Shown: positions 7,656 to 59,100 of the stretch, in pieces
Numbering within the stretch: the first letter of the stretch is position 1
Layout of the letters: the number at the start of each line of letters is the position of its first letter
Assembly (NCBI RefSeq): GCF_921293095.1
Contig: NC_060259.1
Location: forward strand, 372,001-436,000
DNA: 64,000 nucleotides
DNA from: Ischnura elegans
Taxonomy: Eukaryota > Arthropoda > Insecta > Odonata > Coenagrionidae
Direction: 5' to 3'
The notes under the pieces: model-generated
Seen by the model: the letters and a program-made list of their open reading frames with translations, nothing else
Databases searched by the model: none
What the model was told of the DNA's origin: nothing
Translations under genes and position numbers: made by a program

Positions 7656-9365
7656 TTAATAGTTATGGAACACTCTAAAACAGGGTTCAAGACATAGTCC
7701 TGGTTCACCATCACACATCGGGCAGTACGTGACGACGTCTCTTCTTACTCCTGTCGTTGAGCAGTTACGACATCTTTTTCTTTGCGCTCTTGAACCCTTT
7801 TCACTTTGTATTTGTACTGGCAAATGGATCTTTTCCTTTCGCTGGATTGGCGCTGGAATTTCTGCCGGCTTGTTTTTGAAAATAAGACTGGCGATTACAC
7901 TTTCACGAAAATTCTGAAGACTCATGTGTTGGCTACTAAATTTATTATGTAGTATTTGCGAGTTGTTTAGAAGTATTTGAAACATGTGTATCCCTAATTT
8001 TAAATACCATCTCAGGCTTCTTCTCTCCACTGGATAATAAGAAATAATCTGGTCCGCCCTATCTATTCCCCCCATAAATTTATTGTATTCGGCTACAACG
8101 CTTGGTTTTTTAGAAATTTTACCCCTTCTGTTTGCTACTTCTATCATCTCTCCACAATGCTCCGAGGAAATCATTAAAACTTCTCTTCTATCCTTCCATT
8201 TGCATATGAAAATTCCTTCTTTCGTATACTGGCCCACTACTTCTCCTTTTGCCAATTTTTTATTTACAACATTATGAGGGTTGCCTTTCCTAGTGTTTCT
8301 GAGAGTTCCCGTGGAATATATTTTCTTTCCCAGCAGTTCTCGCGACAATTTATAGCTGTTATAGAAGTTGTCCATGTACACAGCATGACCAACATTAGTA
8401 TAATCAGATAGAAGCGAATGTACAACTTTTTCTGAGTGACCAACTCCCCCAACATTTGGATCCTTGGAACCTGCGTAAACCAAGCAATTCAAAACAAGCC
8501 CATTTGGTTCCGTTAGCATGTACAATTTAATACCATATTTATGCCTCTTGTTTTTTATGTACTGCCGGAAATATAGTCTTCCCCTCCAAAGTACCATCGA
8601 TTCATCTAAGCTAAGTTGTTTCTGAGGATAGTACACTTTTTTCATATTGGTCTGGATAAGATTCAAAAGAGGGCGGATTTTGTAGAGTGGATCACTTGGC
8701 TTAGGGTGGCCATCAGGAGCGTTACGACCAAAATGTAGGCACCGCAAAATGATCATGAACCTGTCTCTTGGCATGGCCTTTGAAAATGTGGGAAATTCAT
8801 AAAGCCCATCTTTTCGCCAATAATATTGAATTTTATTTATTCTGATAAGCCCCATATGAAAAAGTAGCCCTAAAAATATTTCAAACTCCCCTCTAGTCAA
8901 GTCTTTCCATGGTTTCATTTTAGATTTATCAGCTACTGATTTATTCTGCAATTTTTGGGCATAAATATTTGTTTCAGAAATTATGTGGTTGAAAAATTCA
9001 TCGTTTGCCAAGAGCATGAAGAATCCTATTGGATCTAAAACATGAGGCCGTATTTTGAGTCCAGAATTTCCAGTAAAAGCAATAGGAGTGATAACTGGCC
9101 GTTCAGTTTGCCATCCTGCCGGGGATATGCGTTTACCTGAATCACTTGAGGCCTGACAATCGCCATTTGCACCACTGTCATCCTCGGAGCTCTCGTCGGT
9201 TTCCTCATCTTCAGAGGAGACATCAAAATCCGAATCTGTTGCACTTCCATCCGAAATTTCTTCTTCCCTCTCAGAGAACCGAGCGATGTCTTCGTCGGAG
9301 ATAGACACAGGGTGACGAAGTGCGCTCCTTGTCCGCTTTCTTGATGAATTCGGTTTATTCTCCAT
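7656..9365 (-). CDS. piggyBac transposase (PGBD4-like)
   Basis: A 569-residue uninterrupted cut-and-paste transposase that would excise and insert the element at TTAA. The N-terminus (about 1-75) is acidic and Ser/Glu/Asp-rich, as usual for the family. The RNase H-like catalytic core follows, with Asp254 in LSLDESM, Asp332 in YMDNFYNS and Asp435 in GGIDRADQ. The spacing (78 and 103 residues) closely resembles that of the characterised moth transposase. The last ~40 residues hold a Cys-rich cluster (CRNC, CPMC, CLEPC then H), matching the C-terminal zinc-binding domain that recognises the ends. The start at 9365 is the first Met of the frame and precedes the acidic tail. No intron is needed. 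Expression cannot be judged from sequence. Confidence 0.93.
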   Translation of the reverse strand: MENKPNSSRKRTRSALRHPVSISDEDIARFSEREEEISDGSATDSDFDVSSEDEETDESSEDDSGANGDCQASSDSGKRISPAGWQTERPVITPIAFTGNSGLKIRPHVLDPIGFFMLLANDEFFNHIISETNIYAQKLQNKSVADKSKMKPWKDLTRGEFEIFLGLLFHMGLIRINKIQYYWRKDGLYEFPTFSKAMPRDRFMIILRCLHFGRNAPDGHPKPSDPLYKIRPLLNLIQTNMKKVYYPQKQLSLDESMVLWRGRLYFRQYIKNKRHKYGIKLYMLTEPNGLVLNCLVYAGSKDPNVGGVGHSEKVVHSLLSDYTNVGHAVYMDNFYNSYKLSRELLGKKIYSTGTLRNTRKGNPHNVVNKKLAKGEVVGQYTKEGIFICKWKDRREVLMISSEHCGEMIEVANRRGKISKKPSVVAEYNKFMGGIDRADQIISYYPVERRSLRWYLKLGIHMFQILLNNSQILHNKFSSQHMSLQNFRESVIASLIFKNKPAEIPAPIQRKEKIHLPVQIQSEKGSRAQRKRCRNCSTTGVRRDVVTYCPMCDGEPGLCLEPCFRVFHNY

Positions 9366-10181
9366 GAAGTCTTCTTAGAGTAAAATAAAGAAAAAGGTTA
9401 AATTATTTCTCAATATTGCTGTAAACATTGAAATCAAACATTTCAAATAAAGTCGTACATACCAATTGAGCTGGTTCTAAGTTTTATCTAAAGTATACTT
9501 GAAGGTATTTTACGTCATTCGAAGCGAATGGTATTTATGAAGCAACTTCTTATTTATCCTGCGGAAAACAACGAGACCATAATCATTATCGGGATAGCAG
9601 CAACAAATAGAAATTCATTTTTTATGAATAAATAGTAAATACTATTGTTGAATTCTAAAGATAATCAATAAATAGAATAATTATATTTATTTTTAAAATT
9701 GTACTTACCTTATGTATGCTCCCCTTTATATATATGCCTTGAATAACAATGTCGCGAAAGCAAAAATAAAATAGGTACATTGTACGAAGCACACAGCCAA
9801 AAAGTGTCTCCAAAAGGCAAACTGATGGTTTGCTACATATGAAGTGTTATCTTGACTTCTTTGAAGATAGCGACTTGCAAGATTGTAAAAATATAATTGT
9901 GGAAACATGATATACGGAAAAAGGGTAAAAAACGCGTCAGGAATACACGGAATCAAATGACATAGTGAATGAAAAATAAGAAGGCTTCATTGTATTTCCG
10001 AAGCATGACATTTGAGAACGGGGGGCAGATTTTAGAATGTAGTTCTATGTAAAGACCGGGTAAAATTCAGGAGACAGCTGTGACGAGCGGGCGACAAAAA
10101 AATTTCATTTTGGATCACCAGTGTTTCAAGACGCCGAAAGGCGGCGGCCGATCCTTGGGAAAACACGGCACGCCGCCTATC
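9366..10181. other. piggyBac 5' untranslated/promoter side
   Basis: Non-coding part of the element upstream of the transposase start. It should contain the transposase promoter, but no specific box stands out. The 76-codon frame at 9726-9956 is not convincing. Confidence 0.5.
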
Positions 10182-35639: not shown

Positions 35640-38175
35640 ATCATCACCATCATTCCTGGCCAACGATCCTAGGATTGGTTTGACGCAGCTCTCCACTCAG
35701 TTCTCCTATCAGCTAATCTTTTTACTCCTACGTATTTCTTCTCCTTCACATCTCTCTTTACTTGTTCCATATATTTTGTTCGAGGTCTTCCTTTTCCATT
35801 CTTGCCTTCCACTTGCCCTTCGACGATTGTCTTCATCAGGCCATCATGTCTCAAGATGTGGCCTATAAGGTTGTTCCGTCTTCTTATTAAGGTTTTCATG
35901 AGGCTTCTCTTCTCTCCTACCCTTCTTAGGACTTCCTCGTTACTAACTCGGTCGATCCATTTGATTTTCATCATTCTTCTGTAGCACCACATTTCAAAGG
36001 CCTCTATCCTTGCTTTCTCCGCTGCGGTCATTGTCCATGCCTCACTTCCGTATAGGAGCATACACCAGATGTAGGTTCTTATAAATTGTTTCTTTACATC
36101 CATATTCAAGTTTCCCGCTGTAAGCAGGTCTCTCTTTTGGTGGAATGCTCTCTTCGCCTGGGCTATTCTGCTGATAATTTCTTTCTTGCTTCTCCCGTCA
36201 CCAGTTATCTTGCTTCCCAAATAACAGAATTCATCCACCTCTACCAGTTTTTGCCTCCCTATTTTAATGTTGGTCTTGACTTCTTCTCTTCTGCTGCATA
36301 CTAAGATCTTGGTTTTCTTCGTGCTTATTTTCAGTTGATATCTACTCATTACCCTACCCATATTAGCCAAAATATTTTTCAAATCCTTCTCTGTTTCTGC
36401 TATAACGGCTATGTCATCTGCAAATCTTAGCATGCTAATTTTTTCTCCATGGATATTCACTCCCAATGCCTTTTCTTTGATTTCATTAATGGCTTTCTCA
36501 AAGTAAGCGTTGAAAATTACGGGTGACAATGTAAAGCCCTGTCGCACTCCTTTCTTAATTCTTGCTTCTTCACAGCTGGGCCCTGATTTTATCACGGCTA
36601 CTTGGTTTTTTTATAAACTGTGGATGATTCTTCTGTCATTATAAAGAACCCCAATTTCCTTTAGGATTCCAAGCATTGTGCTCCAATCCACGTTGTCAAA
36701 TGCTTTCTCTAAGTCCACAAACGCAACGAATGTTGGCTTGTTCTTTTCCATTCTCTTTTCTATGAGCAGTCTTAGGGCCAATATTGCTTCCCTTGTGCCT
36801 TTGTTTTTTCTGAATCCAAATTGGTCCTCATCCAAGTACTCTTCTGCTTTTCGTTCTATTCTTCTATAGATGATCCTTGTCAGTATCTTTGATGCATGTG
36901 TAGTAAGGCTTATGGTCCTAAAATCTTCGCACTTCTCCGCTCGTTTCCTCTTAGGAATAGGGATTATAATGTTCCTCTCGAAATCATTTGGTATCTCACC
37001 TGTCGTATACATTTCACTAATGATTTTGTATAGCTGGTTCAACGTCTTCTCTCCTGAATTTTTGATTAGTTCTGCAGGAATGCCATCAATGCCAGACGCT
37101 TTATTTATCCTGAGGTCTCATACAGCCGCATCAAATTCCGATCTTAAAATTGGGGCTCCCATGTCATCGGCATCCACTTCCCTCTCGTTTTCGATAGCAT
37201 TCGTTCTGAGGCGACTTCCTTTGTACAAATCTTCCAGATATTCCTTCCATTTCTTCCCTTTTTCTTCGTTTTCAATCAATAGTTCTCCGTTTTTGTCCCT
37301 TAGGGTATTACATCTTACGCCCCTTTCCTTAAAGTGGTTCCTCACTATACTAAAGGGGCCTCTACTTTTCCATGTTTAAGATTGTTTTGCACGTCTTCGC
37401 AAATGCTTTTCATCCACGTTTCTCTAGCCTTCCGCGCTTTACGACATATTTCGTTCCTTATCCTCTTGTAACGATTCTGTCCTTCCTCTGTTTTCGCGCC
37501 TTGTATTTTCTTCTTTCTTCAATGAGATCTAATACTTCCTGCGTGATCCATGGTTTTTTCATAACGACTCTTCTTTTACCAAGAACTTCCTCAGCTGCCG
37601 CCTGCAGACCACTTCTAATGGTTTTCCAACTCTCTTCCATTGGTTTGTTGGTCGGATCCTCCCCTATTTTATTTTCTACAGCCTCTTTAAAAGCCAGTTG
37701 ATGCTGAACCTCCCTCAATTTTTCGACCTGCCATATATTTCTCACGGCTTTCTTCAACTTTTTAGATTTAAGGTTGCATTTCATCATAACTAAGTTATGG
37801 TCACTATCGATATCTGCCCCTGGATAACTTTTTCAGTCCTTCACCTGGTTCCTGAATCTTTGTTTCGCTAGAATGTACTCGATTTGGAATCTTCTAAGGT
37901 CTCCCGGCATCTTCCACGTGTATCTTCTTAGCAGGGGATTTTTGAATAAAGTGTTGGCAACCACTAGCCTGTTCTCCGCGCAGAATTCAAGTAGCCTTTT
38001 TCCTCTTTCATTTCGGTTACCCAACCCAAGTTTCCCAGTTATTATTCCGTCTTGACCTTCACCGACGACAGCGTTCCAGTCCCCAAAAATAATAAGATTT
38101 TCTTCCCCTCTTACCTGCTTGATAACTTCCTCTATATCTTGGTAGACATCTTCTACTTCTTCATCTTCATGTTCT
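35640..38175 (-). mobile_element. LINE family 3, long copy (5'-truncated, ATG tail)
   Basis: Minus-strand element running from the middle of the endonuclease to a 3' microsatellite, seen as TCATCATCATCACC at 35635-35650 on the plus strand. Homology with the 31.7-32.8 kb copy starts near 38175, the truncation point. Copies of the 3' end also lie at 38.8-39.1 kb and 63.4 kb. Confidence 0.9.
35669..38172 (-). pseudogene. LINE endonuclease-RT pseudogene, three stops and one frameshift
   Basis: Pieces in order: endonuclease C-half with GDWNAVVGEG and RRYTWKMPGD (38172-37833), linker with KKPWITQEVLDLIEERRKYKA, then RT. RT blocks seen are DEDQFGFRKNKGTREA, AFVDLEKAFDNVDW, VRQGFTLSPVIFN (usual Cys-Pro replaced by Phe-Thr) and LRFADDIAV. 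The C-terminal domain has GSEAWTMTAAEKARIEAFEMW and the terminal RTEWRAASNQS. Lesions are in-frame TGA at 37833, loss of one T near 37497 relative to the sister copy, in-frame TGA at 37118 and in-frame TAA at 36611. The 308-codon C-terminal half (36595-35669) is open. Related to family 1 but clearly distinct. Confidence 0.85.
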
Positions 38176-44111: not shown

Positions 44112-44779
44112 AGATCGTAGTCAGCTCGGTAATGAAACATCTAGACGCGCAAAACTTATTAATGGGAAATACACATGGATTCAGGAAAAACAGGTCGTGC
44201 GAAACTCAGTTAGCGCTTTTCGCCCACGATATTTTAGTCTCCGAAGAAGACAACATTCCAGTAGACGCGATATTTCTTGATTTCAAAAAGGCATATGATA
44301 AAGTACCCCACGGAAAGTTAATAATAAAACTGAAATCTTATGGTCTAGACGAAGATGTCATTTCCTGGAAAAGTGAATTTTTGAGCGACCGCGTCCAAAG
44401 AGTAGTATTAGACGGTGCAGTCTCCAATGAGGTTAGAGTCACTTCTGGCGTTCCTCAGGGTAATGTCATAGGCCCACTCCTATTCCTTCTTTATATAAAC
44501 AACATTGGCGAAGTTGTACACAGTAAGTTACTATTATTTGTAGACGAAGCTGTAGTTTACAGAGAAATCCGTTTCAGCAAAAATGTAGATGAACTAACGA
44601 ATGACCTTGCTGCTATCCAAGCTTGGTGCGATGCTTGGTAGTTAGAATTAAATTTGAAAAAATGCGTCGTAATGAATTTCTGGAAGAAGAATAACTCCCT
44701 ACAGCGTAACTATATCATTCGGGGAACCCAGTTAAAGGCAGTTGAATCCGTGAAATATCTAGGGGTTAGACTCAATAAT
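44112..44779 (+). pseudogene. LINE family 4, copy A: RT fragment with FVDE box
   Basis: Internal piece of a CR1/L2/Jockey-like RT, from VMKHLDAQNLLMG to LGVRLNN, missing both ends. It abuts copy B directly. HGFRKNRSCETQ, FLDFKKAYDKVPHG and SGVPQGNVIGPLLF are readable. The catalytic box FADD is replaced by FVDE, and CAG after CDAW is TAG at about 44639. Copy C shares both defects, so they predate the two insertions or the copies are duplicates of each other. Confidence 0.85.
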
Positions 44780-47363
44780 GAAGTGTAACGTCATTTTTGG
44801 AACGGAAAGTTGGCTAACAGATGATGATTCAGACAATGAGATCTTCCCAAAATCGTTCACTGTTTATCGGAAAGATATAATTAATCGAGTTGGGGGCGGA
44901 GTTTTTATAGCTGTAAAGAATTCAATCGTCAGCCAAGCGATAACCGTAACTGAGACCAGCGTTGAATCTGTGTGGTGTTTAATTAAATGTCCAAAATTCA
45001 AAACTATTTTATTATGTTCGTATTACAGACCACCTAACTCAGATATAACGACAATGTTGGATTTTCAAAATCAAATAAACAGCGTAGCATCCAAGTATCC
45101 TGAAAGAAACTTGATTGTGGGTGGAGATTTCAACGTACCTTCTATAGATTGGGAGACTTATAGCTTCATTCCTGGTGGGAGGGATAAAGTGATCTGCGAG
45201 GCCTTATTACACACTTTCACATCTAATTCATTGTTTCAAATAGCATCCGCACCAAACAGAGGAGAAAATATTCTTGATTTATTAGCGACAAATATACCAC
45301 ATCAGGTAATAAACGTTGGCACTGTCGAAGGAATAAGTGACCATAGGGTAGTAACTGCAAAGTTTTCTCTAAATACCGCTGTAAACTTTAAAAAAGAGCG
45401 TAAAGTTTTCATTTTTAAAAGAGCTAATTTTGATGGGTTTAAAAGTCACCTGAAAAATGCTTTCCCCGAGTTTCAAGAATCAGTATTAAAGTTAAATGTA
45501 GAGAATACTTGGAAAGCTTTTCTTTCGCTCGTAACTTCGGGAATAAATAGCTACATCCCTAGTAAAATAGTAAAAGAAGGCAGCGAACCGAGATGGTACG
45601 ACGCGGAAGTGAGAAAATCATTGAGGCGACAGAGAGCGTGTCATGCTAAAATGAAAAAAGTCAGCACGGATTTATCCGCTAATGAACGCGAGCTAATAAT
45701 TAAAAAATATAGGATGACTAAAGCCGCCACGAAGGAAGCGTTCAGGAATGCGTTCACGAATTTTAAAAGAAAATCACTAGTAGCGCAGTTACAGGATAAC
45801 CCAAAAGCATTTTGGTCATATGTTAGGGAAGTTCAAGGTAAACGATCTACCGTATGTTCGCTGAGAAACGACAATGGAGATGTGTTGACAAGCAGTTACG
45901 ATAAAGCCAATTTATTAAATTCCTACTTTAAGAGCGTGTTCACGGAGCCTTCCGAAAACTCACCCGAGACCGATGACAATCCCTGTCTACATAAGATGCC
46001 AGCTATTGACATTAGTACGCTCGGAATAGAAAATATATTGAAATCGCTTAGTCCAAATAAATCACCTGGTCCAGACGGACTCCCTTCTCGCGTATATAAA
46101 GAACTAGCCTCAGAACTTGCCCCCTACTTGCAGTTAATATTCAGTAAATCCATCAAGCAACACGAAGTACCTAATGACTGGAAAATCGCTAATGTAACGC
46201 CTATATTTAAAAGTGGAGACAAGGAACAGCCATCTAATTACAGGCCGATATCTTTAACGTCCATCTCTTGCAAAGTCCTTGAACACATCGTAGTCAGCTC
46301 GGTAATGAAACACCTAGACGCGCAAAACTTATTAATGGGAAATCAACATGGATTCAGGAAAAGCAGATCGTGCGAAACTCAGTTAGCGCTTTTCGCCCAC
46401 GATATTTTAGTCTCCGGGGAAGACAACATTCCAGTAGACGCGATTTTTCTTGATTTCAAAAAGGCATTTGATAAAGTACCCCACGGAAAGTTAATAATTA
46501 AACTGAAATCTTATGGTCTAGACGAATATGTCATTTCCTGGATTAGAGAATTTTTGAGCGACCGCGTCCAAAGAGTAGTATTAGACGGTGCAGTCTCCAA
46601 TGAGGTTAGAGTCACTTCTGGCGTTCCTCAGGGTAGTGTCATAGGCCCACTCCTATTCCTTCTTTATATAAACGACATTGGCGAAGTAGTACACAGTAAG
46701 TTACGATTATTTGCAGACGACGCTGTAGTTTACAGAGAAATTCGTTCCAGCAAAGATATAGATGAACTAACGAATGACCTTGCTGCTATCCAAGCTTGGT
46801 GCGATGCTTGGCAGTTAGAATTAAATTTGGAAAAATGCGTCATAATGAATTTCTGGAAGAAGAATAACTCCCTACAGCGTAACTATGTCATTCGGGGCAC
46901 GCAATTAAAGGCAGTTGAATCTGTGAAATATCTAGGGGTTAGACTCAATAATGATCTATCGTGGAATAAACATATTCGAGAAATAACCGGTCAAGCTAAT
47001 CGTAAAATGGGTTTTGTTAAAAGAATATTAGGAAAGTGCGACGACAAAGTGAGAGAAATTAGCTACTTTTCCCTCGTTAGACCACATTTGGAATACGCTG
47101 CCAGTTTTTGGGACCCTCATGAAAAAGGCTTAATAACAGAGTTAGAACGCGTGCAAAGAAGAGCTGCCAGGTATGTGAAAGGTCGTTACGATTGTCTTGT
47201 TAGTGTAACTGACCTCTTAGATAAACTCGGATGGGAATCTCTGTCGGACCGTAGATTGAAAAATAGACTGAACCTTTTAGATAAATTCAAGAGCAATGTC
47301 TTTTCTGACGAGGTTAACCATATCTTGCGGACGCCAACGTACTACGGAAGATCAGAAGTTTGA
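44778..47363 (+). CDS. LINE family 4, copy B: endonuclease-reverse transcriptase, long open frame
   Basis: An 861-residue uninterrupted frame. Residues 1 to about 200 are an APE-type endonuclease lacking its extreme N-terminus: GTESWL near residue 9, GGGVFIAVK, CSYYRPPNS, IVGGDFNVPSIDW and GISDHRVV, the last two carrying catalytic Asp/His residues. A linker follows. The RT has SPNKSPGPDGLP, NYRPISLTS, QHGFRKSRSCETQ, the first catalytic Asp in FLDFKKAFD (D559), GVPQGSVIGPLLFLLYIND and an intact FADD (D647-D648), then YLGVRLN and the C-terminal domain to TYYGRSEV. The start Met is internal; the coding frame joins copy A at about 44780. The layout fits the CR1/L2/Jockey supergroup. The 3' UTR with ATGTAG units seen in copy C is not found here, so the copy probably lacks its proper 3' end. 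Confidence 0.88.
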   Translation: MKCNVIFGTESWLTDDDSDNEIFPKSFTVYRKDIINRVGGGVFIAVKNSIVSQAITVTETSVESVWCLIKCPKFKTILLCSYYRPPNSDITTMLDFQNQINSVASKYPERNLIVGGDFNVPSIDWETYSFIPGGRDKVICEALLHTFTSNSLFQIASAPNRGENILDLLATNIPHQVINVGTVEGISDHRVVTAKFSLNTAVNFKKERKVFIFKRANFDGFKSHLKNAFPEFQESVLKLNVENTWKAFLSLVTSGINSYIPSKIVKEGSEPRWYDAEVRKSLRRQRACHAKMKKVSTDLSANERELIIKKYRMTKAATKEAFRNAFTNFKRKSLVAQLQDNPKAFWSYVREVQGKRSTVCSLRNDNGDVLTSSYDKANLLNSYFKSVFTEPSENSPETDDNPCLHKMPAIDISTLGIENILKSLSPNKSPGPDGLPSRVYKELASELAPYLQLIFSKSIKQHEVPNDWKIANVTPIFKSGDKEQPSNYRPISLTSISCKVLEHIVVSSVMKHLDAQNLLMGNQHGFRKSRSCETQLALFAHDILVSGEDNIPVDAIFLDFKKAFDKVPHGKLIIKLKSYGLDEYVISWIREFLSDRVQRVVLDGAVSNEVRVTSGVPQGSVIGPLLFLLYINDIGEVVHSKLRLFADDAVVYREIRSSKDIDELTNDLAAIQAWCDAWQLELNLEKCVIMNFWKKNNSLQRNYVIRGTQLKAVESVKYLGVRLNNDLSWNKHIREITGQANRKMGFVKRILGKCDDKVREISYFSLVRPHLEYAASFWDPHEKGLITELERVQRRAARYVKGRYDCLVSVTDLLDKLGWESLSDRRLKNRLNLLDKFKSNVFSDEVNHILRTPTYYGRSEV

Positions 47364-48889: not shown

Positions 48890-51100
48890 AGTTGAAGAGT
48901 TCGGGTCATCGATTGAAGCCTGCAATCCCGATATTGTGATTGGTACTGAATCGTGGCTTAGTGATCATGTTGATTCCAATGAGGTTTTCCCACATAATTT
49001 TGAACCCAAAGGAGAGATAGGGATGGGAGAGGGGGAGGAATATTTATCTGCGTAATAAACAAACTAGCGAGCACTCTAGAATGGATAAGAGATGATTGTG
49101 AGATGATGTCTGTAAGTGTTAAAGGTAAAAATGGTCAGAAAACCCTAAAAATTATTGCTATCTATAGAAGCCCAAACGAAGGGATGCGTGCGGTGGAGGT
49201 TTTAGCGGACGCATGCTCGGAAAGTCCGGAGGGTCATACAATAACAGCAGGGGATTTAAACCTTCCGGGAATTCACTGGGCTGGCGACGCTGTCGCGGTA
49301 GGGGGCGGTAAGGCCCAGGAATTTGCTAGTCGCCTTGTAAATGAAGAGGGCTTTGTGCAGGTGGTGGAAAAACCCACCCGTGGGGCAAACATACTTGACG
49401 TCATGCTGGTGAGACCAGGAGGGTTGGCGGGTGAAGTAATTGTCTCTCCGGGAATAAGCGACCATTCGGCGGTGTGCGTACAACTCAACTGGGCCAAGGC
49501 TCAGTTTAAAGAACCAGACAAGGAAAAGATAATATGGCACTTTGGGAGAGGGGATTGAGAAGGATTCCAGTTATTTTTAAGGGAGAGATTCTCTGAATGG
49601 ATAAGCAAGGGACAGAGTGTTGAGGAAATTTGGGAGACATTTAAGCAGATAATGAATGAAGGCCTAAGTACCTTCGATCCGAATAAGAGAATCAAAGAAA
49701 ATACCGACCCAGAACACTACAACCATACAATTAGATCACTGAAGAGAAAAATAAGAGTGATTCACAAAAAACGGGATCGGAGTCCAGAGTTATCTACCAT
49801 GTATAAAATGTTAATCCGCTTATTAAATAAGGAAAAGAAATTAGCCAAAGAAACGTTTTTGCGGAATGTTATCTCTAAAGACAACGGTAATAAATTTTAT
49901 AAATATTTGAGACGGAGGAAGGGGAGCAGGGACAACATCGCAGTTTTATTAAACAAAAAGGGGCCTTAGTTACAGATGATAAAGAGAAGGCTAATGAGTT
50001 CAGCGACTGGTATTCTAATGTTTTTTGCGAGAGCAATGAATAGAATAGATAATTCAGATATTTCACTGGTTTCTTGGGAACGGTCGGGGATGACGAACAC
50101 ACAGAACCCTATAAATATTTCCACTACCAACTCAGAAATATATAACAAAATCAAAAAAATGAGGCCAAATAAATCAATAGGACCAGATGGAATTTCAATC
50201 GATTGAAACTGGGAGGGAGTGCTGTGACGGGTTATATTCTTTATTTATTCAATGTAACTATGAACAACAATACCCTACCCAAGGACTGGAAGAAGGCTAA
50301 CATAAAGCCCATATATAAAGGTGGTGACGAAAAACTTGTTGAGAATTATAGGCCAGTAAGCTTGACTTCAGTGGTTTGTAAATTAGTTGAAAAGATAATT
50401 GCTGAGTACCTCTGGGATTTGTGGGAAAGTGAAAATTGGCTATTCGAACGACAACACGGTTTTAGAAAAGGACACTCATGTCAAACCCAACTCTTAGGGC
50501 TCTGTCAAGAAATGGCCGACTCCATGGATGCGGGTTTGGAAGTGGACGCCGTTGTAGTAGACCTGTCTAAAGCCTTCGATAAAGTCGAACACAATCGACT
50601 CATACTAAAGATGAGACAATTACCCCAGCAAATAGATAAACGGGTGATCCTGTGGGTTGAGGACTTTCTGAAAGGTCGAACTCAAAGATTACAAGTTGGT
50701 GATACGAGTTCCGATGAAACAATGGTTACATCGGGGGTGCCTCAAGGTAGTGTTCTTGGGCCAATCTTGTTTTTAATTTATATAAATGACCTCCCAAACA
50801 AAATTAACTCGCATTTTAGACTTTTTGCCGACGATTGCATTATTTATAAACAGATAGGAGGAGAGAGCGATCATGAAACTCTGCAAGTGGACATTAATAA
50901 AATGGCAGATTGGGTGACTCAGAACGGGACGGATATAAACGTTAGTAAATGTAAGCTTATATCCTTCGGCAACAAGATAAAGTCTACCAAAAGGGACTAT
51001 CAGTTCTTAGGTAACCCTATTCCTAGGTGTGACAACTGTAAATACTTAGGTGTCCACCTGTCTAAAGATTTGAATTGGGGGCTGAACGTTCAATATACTA
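48890..51100 (+). pseudogene. LINE family 5, endonuclease-RT, frameshifted and interrupted by Penelope element
   Basis: A second CR1/Jockey-like LINE, different from family 4. Endonuclease: NPDIVIGTESWLSDH near 48930, then after a frame change GGGIFICVINK, IIAIYRSPNEG, ITAGDLNLPGIHWAGD and GISDHSAV. A stop at 49556 and frame changes near 49560 and 49960 break the linker. RT (50203-51100): NIKPIYKGGDEK, NYRPVSLTS, QHGFRKGHSCQTQ, VVDLSKAFDKVEH, SGVPQGSVLGPILFLIYIND and an intact FADD, then YLGVHLSKDLNW. At 51100 it stops abruptly at the Penelope-like element's terminal repeat. I do not see its continuation beyond 54010. Confidence 0.85.
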
Positions 51101-51426
51101 CAAAATTCACTAACTCTTGGTTAACTATGTGGTATTCCATTATATCCTGGATATAGACAGTTACTTATACCACTTATTTTATAAGAGCGCGACCCGGGTT
51201 TCAATGAGTAATCATCATCATCAGGCGCTAATTATAATTTGTTTATCTTGTTGTTAATCTTGTTGTTACCTAGTTACTTGATGAATTTTAAAACAGACGC
51301 CAGAATAGGTGAAAAGGATGGGTAGAGGTATTCATTTATAAGGGTACTATCTTGATTGTCAATAATTTTTAAAATTTCTAACTGTTCCCTAGAATCCAGT
51401 TCTCCACGGTCATTGCAAAAATTTAA
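51101..51426 (-). repeat. Downstream pLTR of Penelope-like element
   Basis: Matches 53684-54009 with only one difference noticed (TATATCC against TATTTCC). It contains the ORF C-terminus, the 3' UTR and a hammerhead motif. Confidence 0.92.
51179..51237 (-). ncRNA. Hammerhead ribozyme motif in downstream pLTR
   Basis: Read on the minus strand, helix I 5' side TTATAA-TT-AGCGC is followed by core CTGATGA, a 15-nt helix II region able to form GATGA/TCATT around TTAC, core GAAA, helix III from ACCCGGGT, and the GTC cleavage triplet. Helix I then closes with GCGCT-C-TTATAA. Helix I pairs 5 bp plus 6 bp around an internal loop. ACCCGGGT is self-complementary, as in the minimal dimer-forming hammerheads known from Penelope-like elements. 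One U stays unpaired (or a G-U pair closes) at the base of helix II. Predicted cleavage lies between plus-strand positions 51190 and 51191. Confidence 0.85.
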
Positions 51427-52482
51427 AATATTCATTTTAAAGTCGCTTCTGTGGCAGTTACATATTAAGTGCTTAGCAAAATTACTCTTTTCATCTTTAT
51501 TATGATTGTAAGCGCTTAAATGTTCTTTTTTCCTAATTTCAAAACTTCTTCCTGTCTGTCCCACGTACACACCATTGCAATCGCTGCATTTCAAAGAATA
51601 TACTCCACATCTATCCAATCGGTCTATATGGTCCTTGCATTTAACGATCAGTCTCCTTAAGGTGGAATAAGGTTTAAAAGCCAAGCGGAATTTGTCCTTG
51701 GGTAAATGATGAGCCATTTTCAGAGAAAATGCATCGAGGTACGTCACTGTGCACCACTGCTTCTTTTTATCCTCGTCCGCCGAAAACATTTGGTCGATAG
51801 CCAATCTTCTCTGTTTTTTTAAAATCAGTTTATCTATTAAATTTTGAGAATAACCGTTGGCAGAAGCAATTTGTTTAATGGTGATGATTTCTTTCTTAAA
51901 GTCTTCTTTGGAAAGTGGTATGCTTAACAGGCGATGAATCATGGAATGAAAAGCCATAAGTTTGTGAGAGTAATGGTGTCTTGAACTTGCTGGGATGACA
52001 TGATCGGTATAACAGGGTTTCCGAAAAATGGAGAAGGAATGCCGGCATTTATCGAGTTTGATTGTAAGATCCAGATAATTTAAGCAATGGTTGGAGTCTC
52101 TTTCACAGGTAAATGAAATTGTGGGATGGATGTCATTCAAAAAACTCAAGAACATATCCAGTTGCCGATCAGTTCCATTCCAAAGCACAATAATATTGTC
52201 AACGTACCGGTACCAGTATACCACAGAATTTAGTAGGCTATGCCCTGAGCTAAAAATTTTCCTTTCCAAACTATCAACAAAAACATCTGCCAGCAACGGA
52301 GAAAGTGGTGAGCCCATAGCGAGGCCACTACTTTGTTTGTAAAATTTACCATCGAACTTGAAATAATTTTGTGCCACACATATTTTGAGAAGGGTGGATA
52401 ATTCGTCCTTCATTTTCTTTGCAATATTGGCTGCCCCAGGAGATCTATTGCTAGGCCGGTTGCTTCCTCTGGTGGCACACAA
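51274..52482 (-). CDS. Penelope-like element ORF, RT second half + GIY-YIG endonuclease
   Basis: A 402-residue continuation of the PLE protein in another frame, so one small indel between about 52410 and 52482 splits the original ~830-residue ORF; its Met is not a true start. It contains SSGLAMGSPLSPLLADVF and the catalytic box WYRYVDNIIVLW, where YVDD is normal. The second Asp is therefore Asn, probably inactivating. Next come NYLDLTI and CYTDHV blocks. The C-terminal GIY-YIG nuclease shows CGVYSLKCSDC, GVYVGQTGRSFEIRKKEHL and a conserved-looking EYLY segment. The last ~50 codons lie in the pLTR and are duplicated upstream. Confidence 0.9.
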   Translation of the reverse strand: MCATRGSNRPSNRSPGAANIAKKMKDELSTLLKICVAQNYFKFDGKFYKQSSGLAMGSPLSPLLADVFVDSLERKIFSSGHSLLNSVVYWYRYVDNIIVLWNGTDRQLDMFLSFLNDIHPTISFTCERDSNHCLNYLDLTIKLDKCRHSFSIFRKPCYTDHVIPASSRHHYSHKLMAFHSMIHRLLSIPLSKEDFKKEIITIKQIASANGYSQNLIDKLILKKQRRLAIDQMFSADEDKKKQWCTVTYLDAFSLKMAHHLPKDKFRLAFKPYSTLRRLIVKCKDHIDRLDRCGVYSLKCSDCNGVYVGQTGRSFEIRKKEHLSAYNHNKDEKSNFAKHLICNCHRSDFKMNILNFCNDRGELDSREQLEILKIIDNQDSTLINEYLYPSFSPILASVLKFIK

Positions 52483-53723
52483 GTGAAAAGGTTGACGATA
52501 TCAAAAGATACTAGTCTTGAGTTCTTCGGAGGTATGATGTCTTTAATTTTGTCCACAAGATCAATCGAATTTTTGATACCACGCTTAGACATAAATGCAG
52601 AGTGCTGCGAGATCAGTTGAGTCAAGGTGTGGGCAAGTTTGTGCGCTGGAGCGCTTATACTCGACACCACTGGTCTGATTGGTGCGTCCGGTTTGTGAAT
52701 TTTAATGAGCCCATAAAGTCTAGGAGGAATAGGGTTTTTAGATAACAAAAAATGCCTATCTTTGGGTTGGAAAAGTTCTTTTGAGCTTCGTATGACATCT
52801 CTGATAGATTTTTGGTACTTCTGCGTAGGGTCTTTCTCCAACAGTGACAAATTTGATTTTTGAATAAATTCATAGCACTTCTTAATATAATCCTCCCGCT
52901 TCAAAATCACCAGGCAATTTCCTTTATCAGCTTTCTGAATCACCAAATCTTCAGTCACTAGCTGTCTTTGAATTGATCGAACTGTTTTCAGCACTTGCAC
53001 TGCATCTCTAGAAGGTCGTGAGTCACAAATAGCTGGATAAATCTTACATATCTCGTGGGCAACAACATGTTTCAGGCTTGTATCCGCTCGTTTAAGGGCA
53101 ACATCGAACTCAATCGCTAACGTTTCCAGGTCACTACGGGTTATAGGAATCGGAGGGGCGTACTTTAGCCCTTTAGAAAGGACATCCATTTCTTCCACTT
53201 CAAATTTGTGATGAGATAGATTTAATACTCTCTGGTGGAATTTATGGCATTGTGGTGCTCCATTGACGTCGTCGATCGCTGCCGTCGTCCGTCCTTTCAA
53301 CCGCAGTATTTTACGATTTAGTATCTCACGTTTCTTAAAAGCTGCAACACTGCTGAGTTGACGAACATAATCATCTATAGCTGACCATTCCACAGTGTGC
53401 AAGGAATGCGTAAGTTCAACATGCAAAACGAATAGATAGTAAGAGATGCTATCTCGGATTCCGTACCATTTTCTCAATTCTCTCCGAATCCATTCACTTG
53501 AAGCCTTCCTAACGGCATGGATGGCAGCTGGCGACCGTGAAGATGTTGTGATGTTCACGTAAGATGGGGTAAGATTCTGCCGGAGACACATGCTGTTGAA
53601 GTAAATATTGAGAGAGGCGATCCGTTTCTTGATGGATAACTTTCGGTATAACTTTACTTGAGTAGCCGTACTTGCTTCACGAACAAAATTCACTAACTCT
53701 TGGTTAACTATGTGGTATTCCAT
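52410..53723 (-). CDS. Penelope-like element ORF, N-terminal and RT first half
   Basis: The 437-residue 5' part of the PLE polyprotein. The N-terminal ~250 residues are a basic, helix-rich region without a sharply recognisable fold. RT blocks begin with the ADKGNCLVIL motif, then a YGLIKIHKPDAPIRPVVSS block and SFDIVNLFTCVPPEEA, whose Asp is the first catalytic residue. The frame is lost shortly after, in the 52410-52482 overlap with the next frame. The start codon lies inside the upstream pLTR, about 40 nt after the hammerhead motif. Confidence 0.88.
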   Translation of the reverse strand: MEYHIVNQELVNFVREASTATQVKLYRKLSIKKRIASLNIYFNSMCLRQNLTPSYVNITTSSRSPAAIHAVRKASSEWIRRELRKWYGIRDSISYYLFVLHVELTHSLHTVEWSAIDDYVRQLSSVAAFKKREILNRKILRLKGRTTAAIDDVNGAPQCHKFHQRVLNLSHHKFEVEEMDVLSKGLKYAPPIPITRSDLETLAIEFDVALKRADTSLKHVVAHEICKIYPAICDSRPSRDAVQVLKTVRSIQRQLVTEDLVIQKADKGNCLVILKREDYIKKCYEFIQKSNLSLLEKDPTQKYQKSIRDVIRSSKELFQPKDRHFLLSKNPIPPRLYGLIKIHKPDAPIRPVVSSISAPAHKLAHTLTQLISQHSAFMSKRGIKNSIDLVDKIKDIIPPKNSRLVSFDIVNLFTCVPPEEATGLAIDLLGQPILQRK

Positions 53724-54009
53724 TATTTCCTGGATATAGACAGTTACTTATACCACTTATTTTATAAGAGCGCGACCCGGGTTTCAATGAGTAATCATCA
53801 TCATCAGGCGCTAATTATAATTTGTTTATCTTGTTGTTAATCTTGTTGTTACCTAGTTACTTGATGAATTTTAAAACAGACGCCAGAATAGGTGAAAAGG
53901 ATGGGTAGAGGTATTCATTTATAAGGGTACTATCTTGATTGTCAATAATTTTTAAAATTTCTAACTGTTCCCTAGAATCCAGTTCTCCACGGTCATTGCA
54001 AAAATTTAA
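53684..54009 (-). repeat. Upstream pLTR of Penelope-like element
   Basis: Second copy of the terminal direct repeat. The 53857-54009 part encodes a truncated duplicate of the ORF C-terminus (FCNDRGELDSREQLEIL and onward). The other end runs into the ORF start at 53723. Confidence 0.92.
53762..53820 (-). ncRNA. Hammerhead ribozyme motif in upstream pLTR
   Basis: Identical to the motif at 51179-51237, shifted by 2583 bp. It lies about 40 nt upstream of the ORF start (53723), so self-cleavage would give transcripts a defined 5' end just before the coding region. Predicted cleavage lies between 53773 and 53774. Confidence 0.85.
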
Positions 54010-54705
54010 TATGCGTAAATACGTGACTAATGAGTCTCTTGAGACTCCCACTCCCCGTTTTACCCAAAGCAGTTTTTGACGCCTCGCGCATTTTTTCTTT
54101 GCTGTTAATTTGGTTCGTGGGTTAAATATTTATGCGGTGTATCTCATAAGCGTGCAGTACATTCGGGAAGAGACTAGACGCATGCGAAGTAATAACTCTT
54201 CCATTTTTTGGTCCGAAAACCTTCCCATAGAGCCAAAACGCTTGACGAATCCTTGCTCCTTCAGATCTATGCTACAATTATTTATTACTCATAGGAGATC
54301 CCCACGATAGATTTGAAGTTATCGTAACTCCAAGATATGTGACTCCTTCATGTTGACTTTCCATATTAGGCGATAGGCAGACATCCTACGGAAGTTACGT
54401 AATGAATGCCGCTGCAATGGATAGGGCTCAGTTCTTGTCTTCACGCCTGGTTCCACGCATGATCGTTGCTTGAACAGACGATGTCAACGTCAAGGTCTTC
54501 ACTCATTTCGCGGTAGGTGACAATTTCGTAAGAAAAATAACGAACGATAACTTGATGAACCAACCAACATCGTAACATACTAATGACTGCTGTGCATTTA
54601 TGTCATCCACGACGAACATCACTGGTTCATTAAGTAATCCAACGTCGAACGATGCGATTCACAGGAAAATTAGAACGAAAACTCTGAGTCAGTAAAAGAG
54701 TTAAT
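54010..54705. other. Spacer
   Basis: Right flank of the Penelope-like element. No LINE family 5 continuation and no gene was recognised. Confidence 0.4.
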
Positions 54706-54711
54706 GACTTC

Positions 54712-54785
54712 GCCGGTCTCGGTGCCGGCAGATTAAGTCCTCCCCTGCCACAACAACGATCGCGATTTCGACTCCCGCCTACATA
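54712..54785 (+). mobile_element. tRNA-derived SINE head
   Basis: GTCTCGGTGCCGGCAGATTA, then TCCTCCCCTGCCAC, then the B-box-like GCGATTTCGACTCCCGCC. It matches the unit at 10487-10570 block by block. Confidence 0.55.
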
Positions 54786-54789
54786 TGAT

Positions 54790-55625
54790 TTTATTGAATG
54801 TGTTGCCCGACTTCATTACAATTATCGTAACTGAATAAAGTTCATTGAGCTCTAAGATCACTTGAGATGAATCCGTTTATTTATTATATAGATAGTTTCA
54901 TGTATTGATCGTAATTGGGGGAACCTGTGATCATTGCAGACATTACTATTATCATTACTCCTTGGCGTGAGGGTAAAAATCAAATATTCCACCGCTGAGA
55001 AGTACGAAAATTCTCCTCAACACTTGCTGTACCACGAGTAGAAGGGACAGAGGGGACAGAGGCTGCGGAGCGGAGTTGAAAGAGTCGGAGATCGGATGGG
55101 GGTCGGAATCCTTCCCCGCTGACAGCTTTACGAGCTCTGCGGGCCTCGTTACCGTATCGAGATGGTCCTCGCAGTGAGGGAAATGTATCGAGCAGATAAA
55201 GTGCTGTTCGTATGCGAAGTTAGCTGCGGAGAGTGGAATGGGTTAGTGGGAGAAGTGAAGGAGGGGAAAAAGAGGTGTGTACGGACGTTGGCAGTGAAGT
55301 TAGCGAGTCCGAGATAAGGAGTCGAAAAGGTTAGAGAAAGAGATGGAGAGGGAGATGGAGGCTGGGTGTGGGAGGCGGCGAAAAAACAAACACGAAGCGT
55401 AATGAGGATTGAAGACGCATGGAGGGCATAAAGCACTTTGGGGGAGGAGGGCGAGCGGTAACAGCAAGTTGTGTGCGCGGGGGTGAACATATACGGGTGG
55501 AGAAGCGGAGGAGAGCGGAAGCAGATACGGGTGGGACGAACGGAAGAATCCTTTTCATCCGGGACGCATTGAAAAAATGATTAATTAGACATATTGGAGG
55601 TCTAAAAAACCACTGTCATACGCAG
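54790..55625. other. Spacer, GA-rich
   Basis: Purine-rich DNA at 55040-55560 gives proline/serine-rich frames on the opposite strand. No gene was recognised. Confidence 0.4.
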
Positions 55626-55633
55626 AATAATAA

Positions 55634-56112
55634 TTCTCGGGAAGTTAATATTAAAACTGAAATCTTATGGCCTAGATGATGATGTCATTTCCTGGGTAAG
55701 AGAGCTTTTGAACGACCGCGTCCAAAGAGTGGTATTAGATGGTGTAGTCTCCAATAAGGTTGAGGTCATTTCTGGCGTCCCCCAGGGTGGTGTCATTGGC
55801 CCACTCATATTGCTTCTTTACATATAACGACTCTGGCGAAGTAGTACACAGTAAGCTACGATTATTTTCGGACGACTCTGTATTAATAGACTGCAAATCA
55901 GAGATATTTAAATCGTTATTCTTCCCTCGTATTATTAACAATAGCAATGGTGTCTCAATTACTAGAATTATTCGCGTCACTCCCTCGGACGACTCTCTGC
56001 ATGTTTTGTATTTCTTTTTAGTTCTACACTTGCATGGAGTTTCGTCTTCAATGCTGCATGTTGAAGATTGGTCGCCCCCTGCCAAACACCATGGTGTTAG
56101 GTGTAGATGTAG
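55634..56112 (+). pseudogene. LINE family 4, copy D: RT fragment joined to 3' end
   Basis: 55634-55890 aligns with the copy B RT: LKSYGLDDDVISWVRELL, SGVPQGGVIGPL, and FSDDS in place of FADDA. A one-base deletion near 55825 breaks the frame. The remainder of the RT is missing. The fragment resumes with a 3'-UTR-like stretch containing CCCCCTGCCAAACACC and a short GTAGATGTAGA tail near 56100, like the tail of copy C. Confidence 0.7.
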
Positions 56113-56199: not shown

Positions 56200-59100
56200 G
56201 GCCGCTTTACACAGTGAATTTTCATTCGCAAGATCATTCTAATGATCTTTCGAATGACCATCATTAACCGTGTATAACATAAATTTCCTGCGTTCGAATG
56301 ATAATTTGAATAAAATTTTAGGCATGTTCTAATTTGCTTGAATGATTTCATCTACATCTACATAATACCCTGCGAGCCACCTCTAGGGTGTTTGGCAGGG
56401 GGTGATCAATCACCAGCATGCAGCATGCATTTGGACTCCCACATGCACACCACACCGTCCAAAAAACGTCCCGTATACTAACAAACTATACTACTATATG
56501 CTGTTAGAAATAATAATTGAATTAAGAAACATGCATTAATTTTTACATATGTTAGTAGGCTACACTACAAGTCATGCAATATATTTACAAGTTCTCTTGC
56601 TGTCGTTATAATCTCTTATTGATCGTGGAATAAAATGACATTCGGAATCTGTCTGTTCTACAATCTATCTCTCTTATTTTATTTATATGATCTGATCTTC
56701 GTAGTATGTTAGCGTCCGTAAGATATGGTTAACTTCGTCAGAAAAGACTCTTGAATTTATCTAAAAGGTTTAGTCTATTTATCAATCTACGGTCCGACAG
56801 AGATTCCCATCCGAGTTTATCTAAGAGGTCAGTTACACTAACAAGACTATCGTAACGACCTTTCACATACCTGGCAGCTCTTCTTTGCACGCGTTCTAAC
56901 TCTGTTATTAAGCCTTTTTCATGAGAGACCCAAACACTGGCAGCGTATTCCAAATGTGGTCTAACGAGGGAAAGCTAGCTAATTTCTCCCACCTTGTCGT
57001 CGCACTTTCCTAATATTATTTAAACAAAACCCATTTTAAGATTAGCTTGACCGGTTATTTCTCGAATATGTTTATTCCACGATAGATCATTATTAAGTCT
57101 AACTCCTAGTTATTTCACGGATTCAACAGTCTCTATTTGGGTACCCCGAATCATATAGCTACGTCGTAGGGTGTTGTTCTTCTTCCAGAAATGCATTACG
57201 ACGCATTTTTTTCAAATTTAATTCTAACTACCAAGCATCGCACCAAGCTTGGATAGCAGCAAGGTCATTCGTTAGTTCATCTACATTTTTGCTGAAACGG
57301 ATTTCTCTGTAAACTACAGCTTCGTCTACAAATAATCGTAACTTACTGTGTCCTACTTCGCCAGTGTCGTTTATATAAAGAAGGAATAGGAGTGGGCCAA
57401 TGACACTACCCTGAGGAACGCCAGAAGTGACTCTAACCTCATTGGAGACTGCACCGTCTAATACTACTCTTCGGACACGGTTGCTCAAAATTACTCTAAT
57501 CCAGGAAATGACATCTTCGTCTAGACCATAAGATTTAAGTTTTATTATTAACTTTCCGTGGGGTACTTTATCAAATGTCTTTTTGAAATCAAGAAAAATC
57601 GCGTCTACTGGAATATTGTCTTCCCCGGAGACTAAAATATCGTGGGAGAAAAAAAGCGCTAACTGAGTTTCGCACGACCTGTTTTTCCTGAATCCATGTG
57701 TATTTCCCATTAATAAGTTTTGCGCGTCTAGATGTTTCATTACCGAGCTGACTACGATGTGTTCAAGGACTTTGCATGAGATGGACGTTAAAGATATCGG
57801 CCTGTAATTAGATGGCTGTTCCTTGTCTCCACTTTTAAATATTGGCGTTACATTAGCGATTTTCCAGTCATTAGGTACTTCGTGTTGCTTGATGGATTTA
57901 CTGAATATTAACTGCAAGTAATGGGCGATTTCAATATATTTTCTATTCCGAGCGTACTAATGTCAATAGCTGGCATCTTATGTATACAGGGATTGTCATC
58001 GGTCTCGGGTGAGTTCTCGGAAGGCTCGGTGAACACGCTCTTGAAGTAGGAATTTAATAAATTGGCTTTATCGTAACTGCTTGTCAACACATCTCCATTG
58101 TCGTTTCTCAGCGAACATACGGTAGATCGTTTACCTTGAACTTCCCTAACATATGACCAAAACGCTTTTGGGTTATCCTGTAACTGCTCTACTAGTGTTT
58201 TTCTTTTAAAATTCGTGAACGCATTGCTGAACGCTTCCCGCGTGGTGGCTTTAGTCATCCTATATTTTTTAATTATTAGCTCGCGTTCATTTGTGGATAA
58301 ATCCGAGCTGACTTTTTTCATTTTAGCATGACACGCTCTTTTTCGCCTAAGTGAATTTCTCACTTCCGCGTCATACCATCTCGGCTCGCTGCCTTCTTTT
58401 TTGTTTTACTAGGGATGCAGCTATTTATTACCGAGATTACGAGCGAAAGAAAAGCTTTCCAAGTACCCTCAACATTTAACTTTATTGTTGATTCTTGAAA
58501 CGCTGGGAAAGCAATTTTCAGATGACTCTTAAACCCATCAAAATTAGCTCTTTTAAAAATGAAAATTTTACGCTCTTTTTAAAGTTTACAGCGGTATTTA
58601 GAGTAAGCTTTGCAGTTACTACCCTATGGTCACTTATTTCTTCAACAGTGCCAATGTTTATTACCTGATGTGGTATATTTGTCGCTAATAAATCAGGAAT
58701 ACTTTCTCCTCTGTTTGGTGCGGATGCTATTTGAAGCAATGAGTTAGATGTAAAAGTGTGTAATAAGGCGTCGCAGATCACTTTATCCCTCCCACCAGGA
58801 ATGAAGCTATAAGTCTCCCAATCTATAGAAGGTACGTTGAAATCTCCACCCACAATCAAGTTTCTTTCAGGATACTTGGATGCTACGCTGTTTATTTGAT
58901 TTTGAAAATCCAACATTGACGTTATATCTGAGTTAGGTGGTCTGTAATACGAACATAATAAAATAGTTTTGAATTTTGGACATTTAATTAAACACCACAC
59001 AGATTCAACGCGATTCAACGATTTCCGTGAATGATATGAGCGCACGGCGTCCATCTTACCATTGGCATGCACCTCGGAATTTTAACATCATACTTAAAAT

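Follow-up and report, generated by a model that had tools for sequence, protein, structure and literature searches.

In the 64,000-nucleotide stretch of the Ischnura elegans genome analysed here (the window), 59 nt of the minus strand had been proposed, from the letters alone, to form a hammerhead ribozyme in the downstream pLTR of a Penelope-like element (PLE). The locus raises the question whether this short motif serves its element as a ribozyme, and whether the unpaired U at the base of its helix II is a lesion or part of the fold.

The hammerhead and its host element

The host element has the anatomy of an EN(+) PLE: an RT is followed by a C-terminal GIY-YIG endonuclease, and the pLTRs, which are direct repeats in partial tandem, include the start of the ORF. 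They are equal at 326 of 327 positions (one mismatch). Within each pLTR, the ORF end and a spacer precede the hammerhead, after which come the first 41 nt of the ORF. The following features were assigned:

51100 to 54009, minus: whole PLE insertion of 2910 bp, i.e., one period of 2583 plus a 327-bp repeat
53683 to 54009, minus: upstream pLTR
51100 to 51426, minus: downstream pLTR
52413 to 53747, minus: open frame for the N-terminal portion of the PLE protein, with its ATG at 53723
51274 to 52500, minus: open frame, out of frame with the N-terminal part, that holds the remaining RT and the C-terminal GIY-YIG endonuclease
53762 to 53820, minus: second hammerhead, an identical 59-mer in the upstream pLTR, predicted cut after 53774
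51179 to 51237, minus: hammerhead ribozyme in the downstream pLTR, recognised from its sequence and from homologues in other loci
51237 to 51225 and 51190 to 51179, minus: arms of helix I
51224 to 51218 and 51202 to 51200, minus: core strands CTGATGA and GAA
51217, minus: extra unpaired U between A9 and helix II (+1 register)
51203 to 51216, minus: helix II, GATGA / TCATT with loop TTAC, pairing retained despite sequence change in other copies
51192 to 51199, minus: self-complementary helix III, ACCCGGGT, pairing only marginally in the monomer and fully with a second copy
51190 to 51191, minus: predicted cleavage site after C17 (51191) of GTC, from the hammerhead consensus

The GIY-YIG domain scored 27.9 bits (Pfam cut-off 22.6) and RVT_1 reached 28.7 bits, slightly under the cut-off of 29.6, with an E-value of 1.4e-6; the N-terminal frame had no Pfam match of its own at E-values up to 0.01. 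Since the N-terminal part and the RT/GIY-YIG part lie in different frames, which overlap near 52410-52500, this PLE copy is frameshifted. The translated RT (51274-52500, minus) shows YVDN at the place where RTs usually carry YxDD. No relatives of the PLE protein were found in the viral_contigs and genome_contigs searches, and a search of solved structures by sequence, with the C-terminal piece as query, returned none. Inverted repeats of at least 30 bases were absent from 50500-55000 at the settings used.

Both flanks of the PLE contain remnants of non-LTR elements. To the left, a plus-strand RT frame occupies 50173-51099; to the right (54010-56000) there are weak minus-strand RT remnants at 54299-54349 and 54414-54545 (E 1.6e-4) and, farther out, a plus-strand piece. 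The PLE has not simply inserted into a single intact element at this junction. Elsewhere in the window, a 572-aa open frame at 7656-9374 (minus) encodes a DDE_Tnp_1_7 transposase domain (302 bits) together with a zf-Tnp_2 zinc finger, which we read as piggyBac-like, and an 866-aa frame of a non-LTR retrotransposon, carrying both an endonuclease and an RT domain, lies at 44763-47363 (plus). Three pieces at 44311-44554, 55638-55882 and 57315-57558 are 84-86% alike to one another over 245 bases. GC skew is strong (0.400) in 1-2000, and so is AT skew (-0.319) in 36001-38000.

Read from 51237 to 51179, the 59 nt are TTATAA-TT-AGCGC / CTGATGA / T / GATGA-TTAC-TCATT / GAA / ACCCGGGT / C / GCGCT-C-TTATAA. 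As the sequence-only reading had described, the conserved hammerhead strands and the GTC triplet occur in order, helix I comprises 5+6 bp around an internal loop, helix III is self-complementary, and an unpaired U, a G-U closing pair and a GAT run are found at the base of helix II. In terms of the type I fold, CUGANGA, GAAA and an NUH triplet are in order, and helices I and II stand at the core with standard pairs, helix I being open-ended and helix II separated from A9 by one extra nucleotide. The monomer has no closed helix III; only two copies jointly provide one. Two features of dimeric PLE-type hammerheads are present, namely the tandem location in PLE pLTRs and a palindromic helix III region that permits dimer pairing, the pairing being context-dependent. 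The identical copy at 53762-53820 had been missing from the list of the sequence-only reading. A descriptor combining core, helix II, palindromic helix III and helix I matched twice in the window and in none of 60 dinucleotide-shuffled windows, both strands being searched.

Copies across the genome and the extra nucleotide

Relatives were searched for in the window's own 1.72-Gb genome. The pattern CTGANGAN{8,20}GAAACCCGGGTC (that is, CTGANGA-N8-20-GAAACCCGGGTC) had 2107 + 2191 = 4298 exact matches and its sister type, CTGANGAN{8,20}GAAACGTTGGC, had 2789 + 2752 = 5541, with 0 matches for the backwards control of either. A 181-base query gave at least 43 matches that were 98-100% identical (40 of 2387 first-look candidates scored), and a GIY-YIG profile search gave at least 149 matches (150 of 2199 candidates scored), whose profile ranges place them in at least two families. 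Three other GIY-YIG matches of the window element's profile range have 824-aa open frames beside them.

Eighty regions were picked by coding domain, not by ribozyme, from 87 GIY-YIG matches outside profile range 3-71; left out of the 87 were the window's own match, four matches covered by loci (L005, L007, L009, L020) and two 99% copies. CTGANGA..GAAA occurred in the best-aligned segment of 70 of the 80 regions, and the 59 nt were unchanged in 49 of 80. A homologue with a damaged core was found in 5 of 80 regions (L041, L043, L044, L046, L083), and the best-aligned segment contained no hammerhead homologue in another 5. In profile range 3-71, all 20 fetched loci carried the sister type CTGANGA..GAAACGTTGGC and none of the 20 the ACCCGGGTC type. 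The commonest fully paired form of the sister type is GAGCC-CTGAGGA-A-GGAGA-ATAAA-TCTCC-GAA-ACGT-T-GGC, which differs in its helix II, its palindrome (ACGT) and its triplet (GTT). Other GIY-YIG loci had one or both patterns in 7 of 10 cases and neither in 3 (L018, L021, L023).

Among the first 30 loci of the GAAACCCGGGTC pattern, a match to the window's PLE protein (E up to 1e-5) was present within 1.5 kb in 18 and absent from 12; nine of the 18 match over more than 40 residues and nine only over 19-29 residues carried by the pLTR itself. Nearness of the GAAACGTTGGC pattern to PLE genes was examined at GIY-YIG loci only. Helix II types like GTAAC/GTTAC and AGCAT/ATGCT occurred without a match to the window's PLE protein within 1.5 kb at L123-L125, L129, L131-L133, L141 and L142, and one GTAAC-type locus (L136) had a 42% match to it over 67 residues; these types may come from more distant PLE families or from non-autonomous elements. 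Head-to-head hammerheads on both strands, 75 to 242 bases apart, were seen at 8 of the 30 loci L120-L149 (L124, L125, L127, L128, L137, L138, L145, L146), representing 4 places. Inverted pLTRs are known from PLEs, according to excerpts of PMC3846280.

The covariance check that the sequence-only reading had put forward as a way to refute its claim came out negative. The Rfam hammerhead model RF00163 had no match in the whole window at the gathering score, nor in 3.8 kb and 86 bases of it at E up to 10. Across the genome it gave 0 matches with 73 of 227,893 candidates scored, and 14 control genomes were also silent. Because RF00163 likewise gave nothing, among the candidates scored, in a genome with 9,839 core-pattern matches, we give the missing Rfam match little weight. 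In viral_contigs, the single match of a narrower CTGATGA pattern was rejected, as helix I had no pair there and none of the registers tried gave a helix II.

Since the core patterns leave helix II free, its pairing could be compared among copies. From all 100+100 places listed (of 4298 and 5541), which lie on one contig (C1), we obtained 61+66 = 127 distinct helix II segments. In the textbook register, with helix II directly after A9, a stem of at least 4 bp formed in 0/61 and 0/66 segments; with one extra nucleotide on the A9 side (+1 register) it formed in 37/61 and 40/66 (77/127), as against a mean of 2.2 and 1.8, and at most 7, for shuffled segments. The other four registers gave at most 2 stems: in the first set 1/61 (0/2, A9 side/opposite side), and in the second set 1, 2 and 1 of 66 (0/1, 1/1 and 2/0, respectively). 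The remaining segments had no contiguous 4-bp basal stem in the tried registers, as expected for decayed copies.

Pairs 2, 3 and 4 of helix II exceeded the expectation for independent columns (e.g., 57/61 versus 31.5 and 58/66 versus 29.8) and used TA, CG, AT and GC, while pair 1 was barely above expectation (52 versus 50.0 and 52 versus 49.4); because the copies are related, these counts are not independent events. The extra nucleotide was T in 61/61 segments of the first set, and T in 41, C in 17, A in 6 and G in 2 of the second. A recount of 29 distinct segments from L002-L149 gave 0 stems in the textbook register and 20 in the +1 register; three other 4-bp stems had two extra nucleotides on the A9 side versus one on the other side, the difference again being one. 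A separate table, limited to strings fitting the helix III list, held 39 distinct rows (the chance viral match included), and the 35 rows with a helix II of at least 4 bp had one extra nucleotide in 30 cases and two versus one in 5. The longer GAT run in L094 enlarges the loop and keeps the stem. At the free core position 7, A, T, G and C were all seen.

With 0/127 segments in the textbook register and 77/127 in the +1 register, the unpaired U looks like the rule and not like a lesion. The earlier suggestion that it might impair activity was dropped, since one extra nucleotide accompanies most well-paired helices II, whatever their sequence. An extra nucleotide in the catalytic core has also been reported for a natural viroid hammerhead, that of CChMVd(+), in a position next to helix II. 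That case concerns one viroid and reportedly an A, whereas the nucleotide is mostly U here and is found in many genomic copies. The literature searched, which lay outside the two primary papers (Lunse 2017; Cervera and de la Pena 2014), contained no mention of an extra nucleotide in PLE hammerheads.

For helix I, 76 of 100 cells from 25 distinct contexts paired in register. When the arms were slid by -2, -1, +1 and +2, pairing was found in 32/50, 17/75, 23/100 and 55/100 cells (23 to 64 percent), the fairly high values for shifts of 2 arising because GCGC repeats itself. In L016, ATCCGGAT replaces ACCCGGGT with both sides changed, and four rows have a broken palindrome (L073, L118, L012, L021); several old copies have a broken helix I or palindrome. 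The evidence for helix III within the ACCCGGGT type is thus suggestive only. The assignment of the window motif as a minimal type I hammerhead of a downstream PLE pLTR is backed by the repeats, by the RT and GIY-YIG domains, and by the presence and helix II covariation of the motif across PLE families of the same genome. We infer that the window copy is, or was, self-cleaving.

Proposed dimer-dependent cleavage and related systems

The energy model contains no tertiary or non-standard core pairs, so its folding numbers are a guide only: the monomer with two ACCCGGGT pairs closed had a computed fold of -6.8 kcal/mol versus -7.8 kcal/mol without them. In the isolated monomer, CGGG of the palindrome pairs with CCUG, which is the last base of the helix I arm plus core C3, U4 and G5. 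The chance of an open core was 0.0003 in the monomer, and that of both cores being open was 0.047 in the dimer. Intermolecular helix III reached 0.85-1.0 in a dimer of the 59-mer, with the inner pairs of helix I at 0.93-1.0. Dimer pairing holds with 20-nt flanks; helix III was at 0.07 with 40-nt flanks and at 0.49-0.57 with 80-nt flanks. The GAT run allows four helix II registers, of which the active one was populated up to 0.36 (range 0.30-0.36) and the others at 0.31, 0.21 and 0.11. An exceptional dimerisation energy was dropped as a candidate, as 58 of 300 shuffles equalled the free-energy gain.

The best explanation, which we hold with high confidence, is a minimal type I hammerhead of a GIY-YIG-bearing PLE that would cleave in a dimer-dependent manner and probably process transcripts to unit length. 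The hammerhead is found in both pLTRs and has been retained in the majority of the copies studied; a second PLE family shows the same architecture, with compensatory helix II change and one extra nucleotide between A9 and helix II. The monomer would be silent because half of the palindrome pairs with core C3-G5. Two hammerheads, on one tandem transcript or on two transcripts, would pair via ACCCGGGT to a double hammerhead, which should then cleave after GUC. Cuts after 53774 and 51191 would release an RNA of 2583 nt that has its ATG at nt 51 and ends in the ribozyme on the 3' side, and the likeliest role is unit-length processing of read-through or tandem transcripts. By its coordinates, the insertion starts 236 nt upstream of the first predicted cut and ends 91 nt past the second. 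Since the inserted copy spans both cut sites, its template was either uncut at both or re-ligated, and cleavage is probably not a required step of insertion.

PLE hammerheads as a kind are already known, and the title of Lunse 2017 states their dimeric cleavage. Those published (Cervera and de la Pena 2014; Lunse et al. 2017, as covered in excerpts of PMC7761336, PMC6155905 and PMC6466107) share the minimal type I core in pLTR tandem, a diminished helix III and a proposed dimeric cleavage, the last also put forward in PMC7761336 and PMC6466107. In the window element, helix III is a loopless, perfect 8-nt palindrome and one extra nucleotide separates A9 from helix II, features in which it may differ from the published ones. 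Their role is called unknown in the review excerpted (PMC7761336).

A close parallel is PAc, a Poseidon element of Anolis carolinensis, as far as excerpts of PMC11167929 describe it. It is a GIY-YIG PLE with a hammerhead near the pLTR-ORF junction, its insertions end within the start of the ORF, and insertion templates need not be cut. In PAc, hammerhead and start codon overlap and the cut falls 26 bp into the ORF, whereas the predicted cut in the window precedes the ATG by 50 nt; PAc reverse transcription begins 111-118 bp inside the ORF, and the window insertion ends 41 nt into it. According to the same excerpts, the PAc hammerhead cleaves in vitro with its protein present and is dispensable for insertion, and no RNA reads starting or ending at the presumed cut site were reported from Anolis. 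The window insertion across both cut sites agrees with the account in PMC11167929 that unprocessed RNA is the main substrate and that hammerhead mutants insert normally.

Pen2_Av and Pen2a_Av of Adineta vaga (PMC3846280, in part) resemble the window element in that the ORF begins within the pLTR (12 aa in A. vaga, 41 nt in the window), and Pen2_Av shares the partial tandem arrangement. Pen2a_Av also has an inverted pLTR, of which none was found in the window element; the word hammerhead is absent from the text of PMC3846280. Weak helices III with more active dimers are described for the double hammerheads of newt, salamander and avocado sunblotch viroid, and a palindromic tetraloop for an axolotl type (excerpts of PMC7229834 and PMC6155905). 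In the same excerpts these systems have a satellite, retrozyme or viroid context, in contrast to the autonomous-type PLE of the window. A close counterpart is an axolotl hammerhead in which cleavage persists despite a U-U mismatch at the helix II base, though weakly in the monomer (PMC7229834, in part).

Alternative readings and significance

The motif might instead be a structured, hammerhead-like signal retained for a different function, for example PLE protein binding or the initiation of translation or of reverse transcription, while self-cleavage in the cell would be slight or absent. Such a role would agree with PAc, for which the excerpts of PMC11167929 report that hammerhead mutants had no effect on insertion in vitro, that cleavage needs the protein and that cleaved reads were unseen, and with the window insertion, which spans both cut sites uncut. 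We consider it rather improbable, however, since the catalytic strands are kept in 70 of 80 regions and in 20 of 20 loci of the other family, found by coding domain, and since helix II has been rewritten and the free position 7 varies, a pattern that a mere binding stem would not need. The genome-wide core-pattern counts are excluded from this last point because the patterns themselves demanded the other core positions. Another reading places the hammerheads on a route to circular RNA, with the extra 327 bp derived from reverse transcription more than once round the circle. The insertion is indeed one period long plus 327 bp and extends over both cut sites, and retrozymes with type I hammerheads form circles (PMC7229834, in part). 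An uncut tandem template explains the same anatomy, though, and the sources excerpted name unprocessed RNA as the dominant substrate in PAc (PMC11167929) and tRNA ligases, not the ribozyme, as the most likely agents of circularisation (PMC7229834); we regard this route as unlikely.

That the ribozyme is a relic, the neutral baggage of a once useful element, is suggested by the frameshifted ORF of the window copy and by copies with broken cores. Against this, the pLTRs differ at 1 of 327 positions, at least 43 matches listed are 98-100% identical and 824-aa open frames lie beside three other GIY-YIG matches, so that the PLE family looks recently active; compensatory change in helix II moreover argues for long-term use. 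Neutral baggage is therefore a very unlikely account. Chance resemblance in a GAT-rich stretch, to which the shortness of the motif and the missing Rfam match might point, deserves practically no credence: there were no matches in 60 shuffled windows, thousands of genome copies stand against 0 in the controls, and copies without the GAT run share the architecture. We take chance as already refuted by the 4298 versus 0 matches and the helix II register counts.

With the dimer-dependent PLE hammerhead as the preferred reading, we tentatively suggest, at less than even confidence, that the PLE hammerheads of this genome may form a distinct structural variant, in which eight nucleotides (CUGANGA and a free one) make up the junction strand leading into helix II and helix III is a palindrome without a loop, the arrangement having been maintained in at least two PLE families. 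In such a variant, the extra nucleotide would fit the three-way junction for dimeric cleavage, perhaps aided by protein, and transcripts would be cut only when they carry two copies. A standard covariance model can miss such a ribozyme. The genome itself offers thousands of natural variants with an apparent one-extra-nucleotide rule at the junction of A9 and helix II, which can be traced across families.
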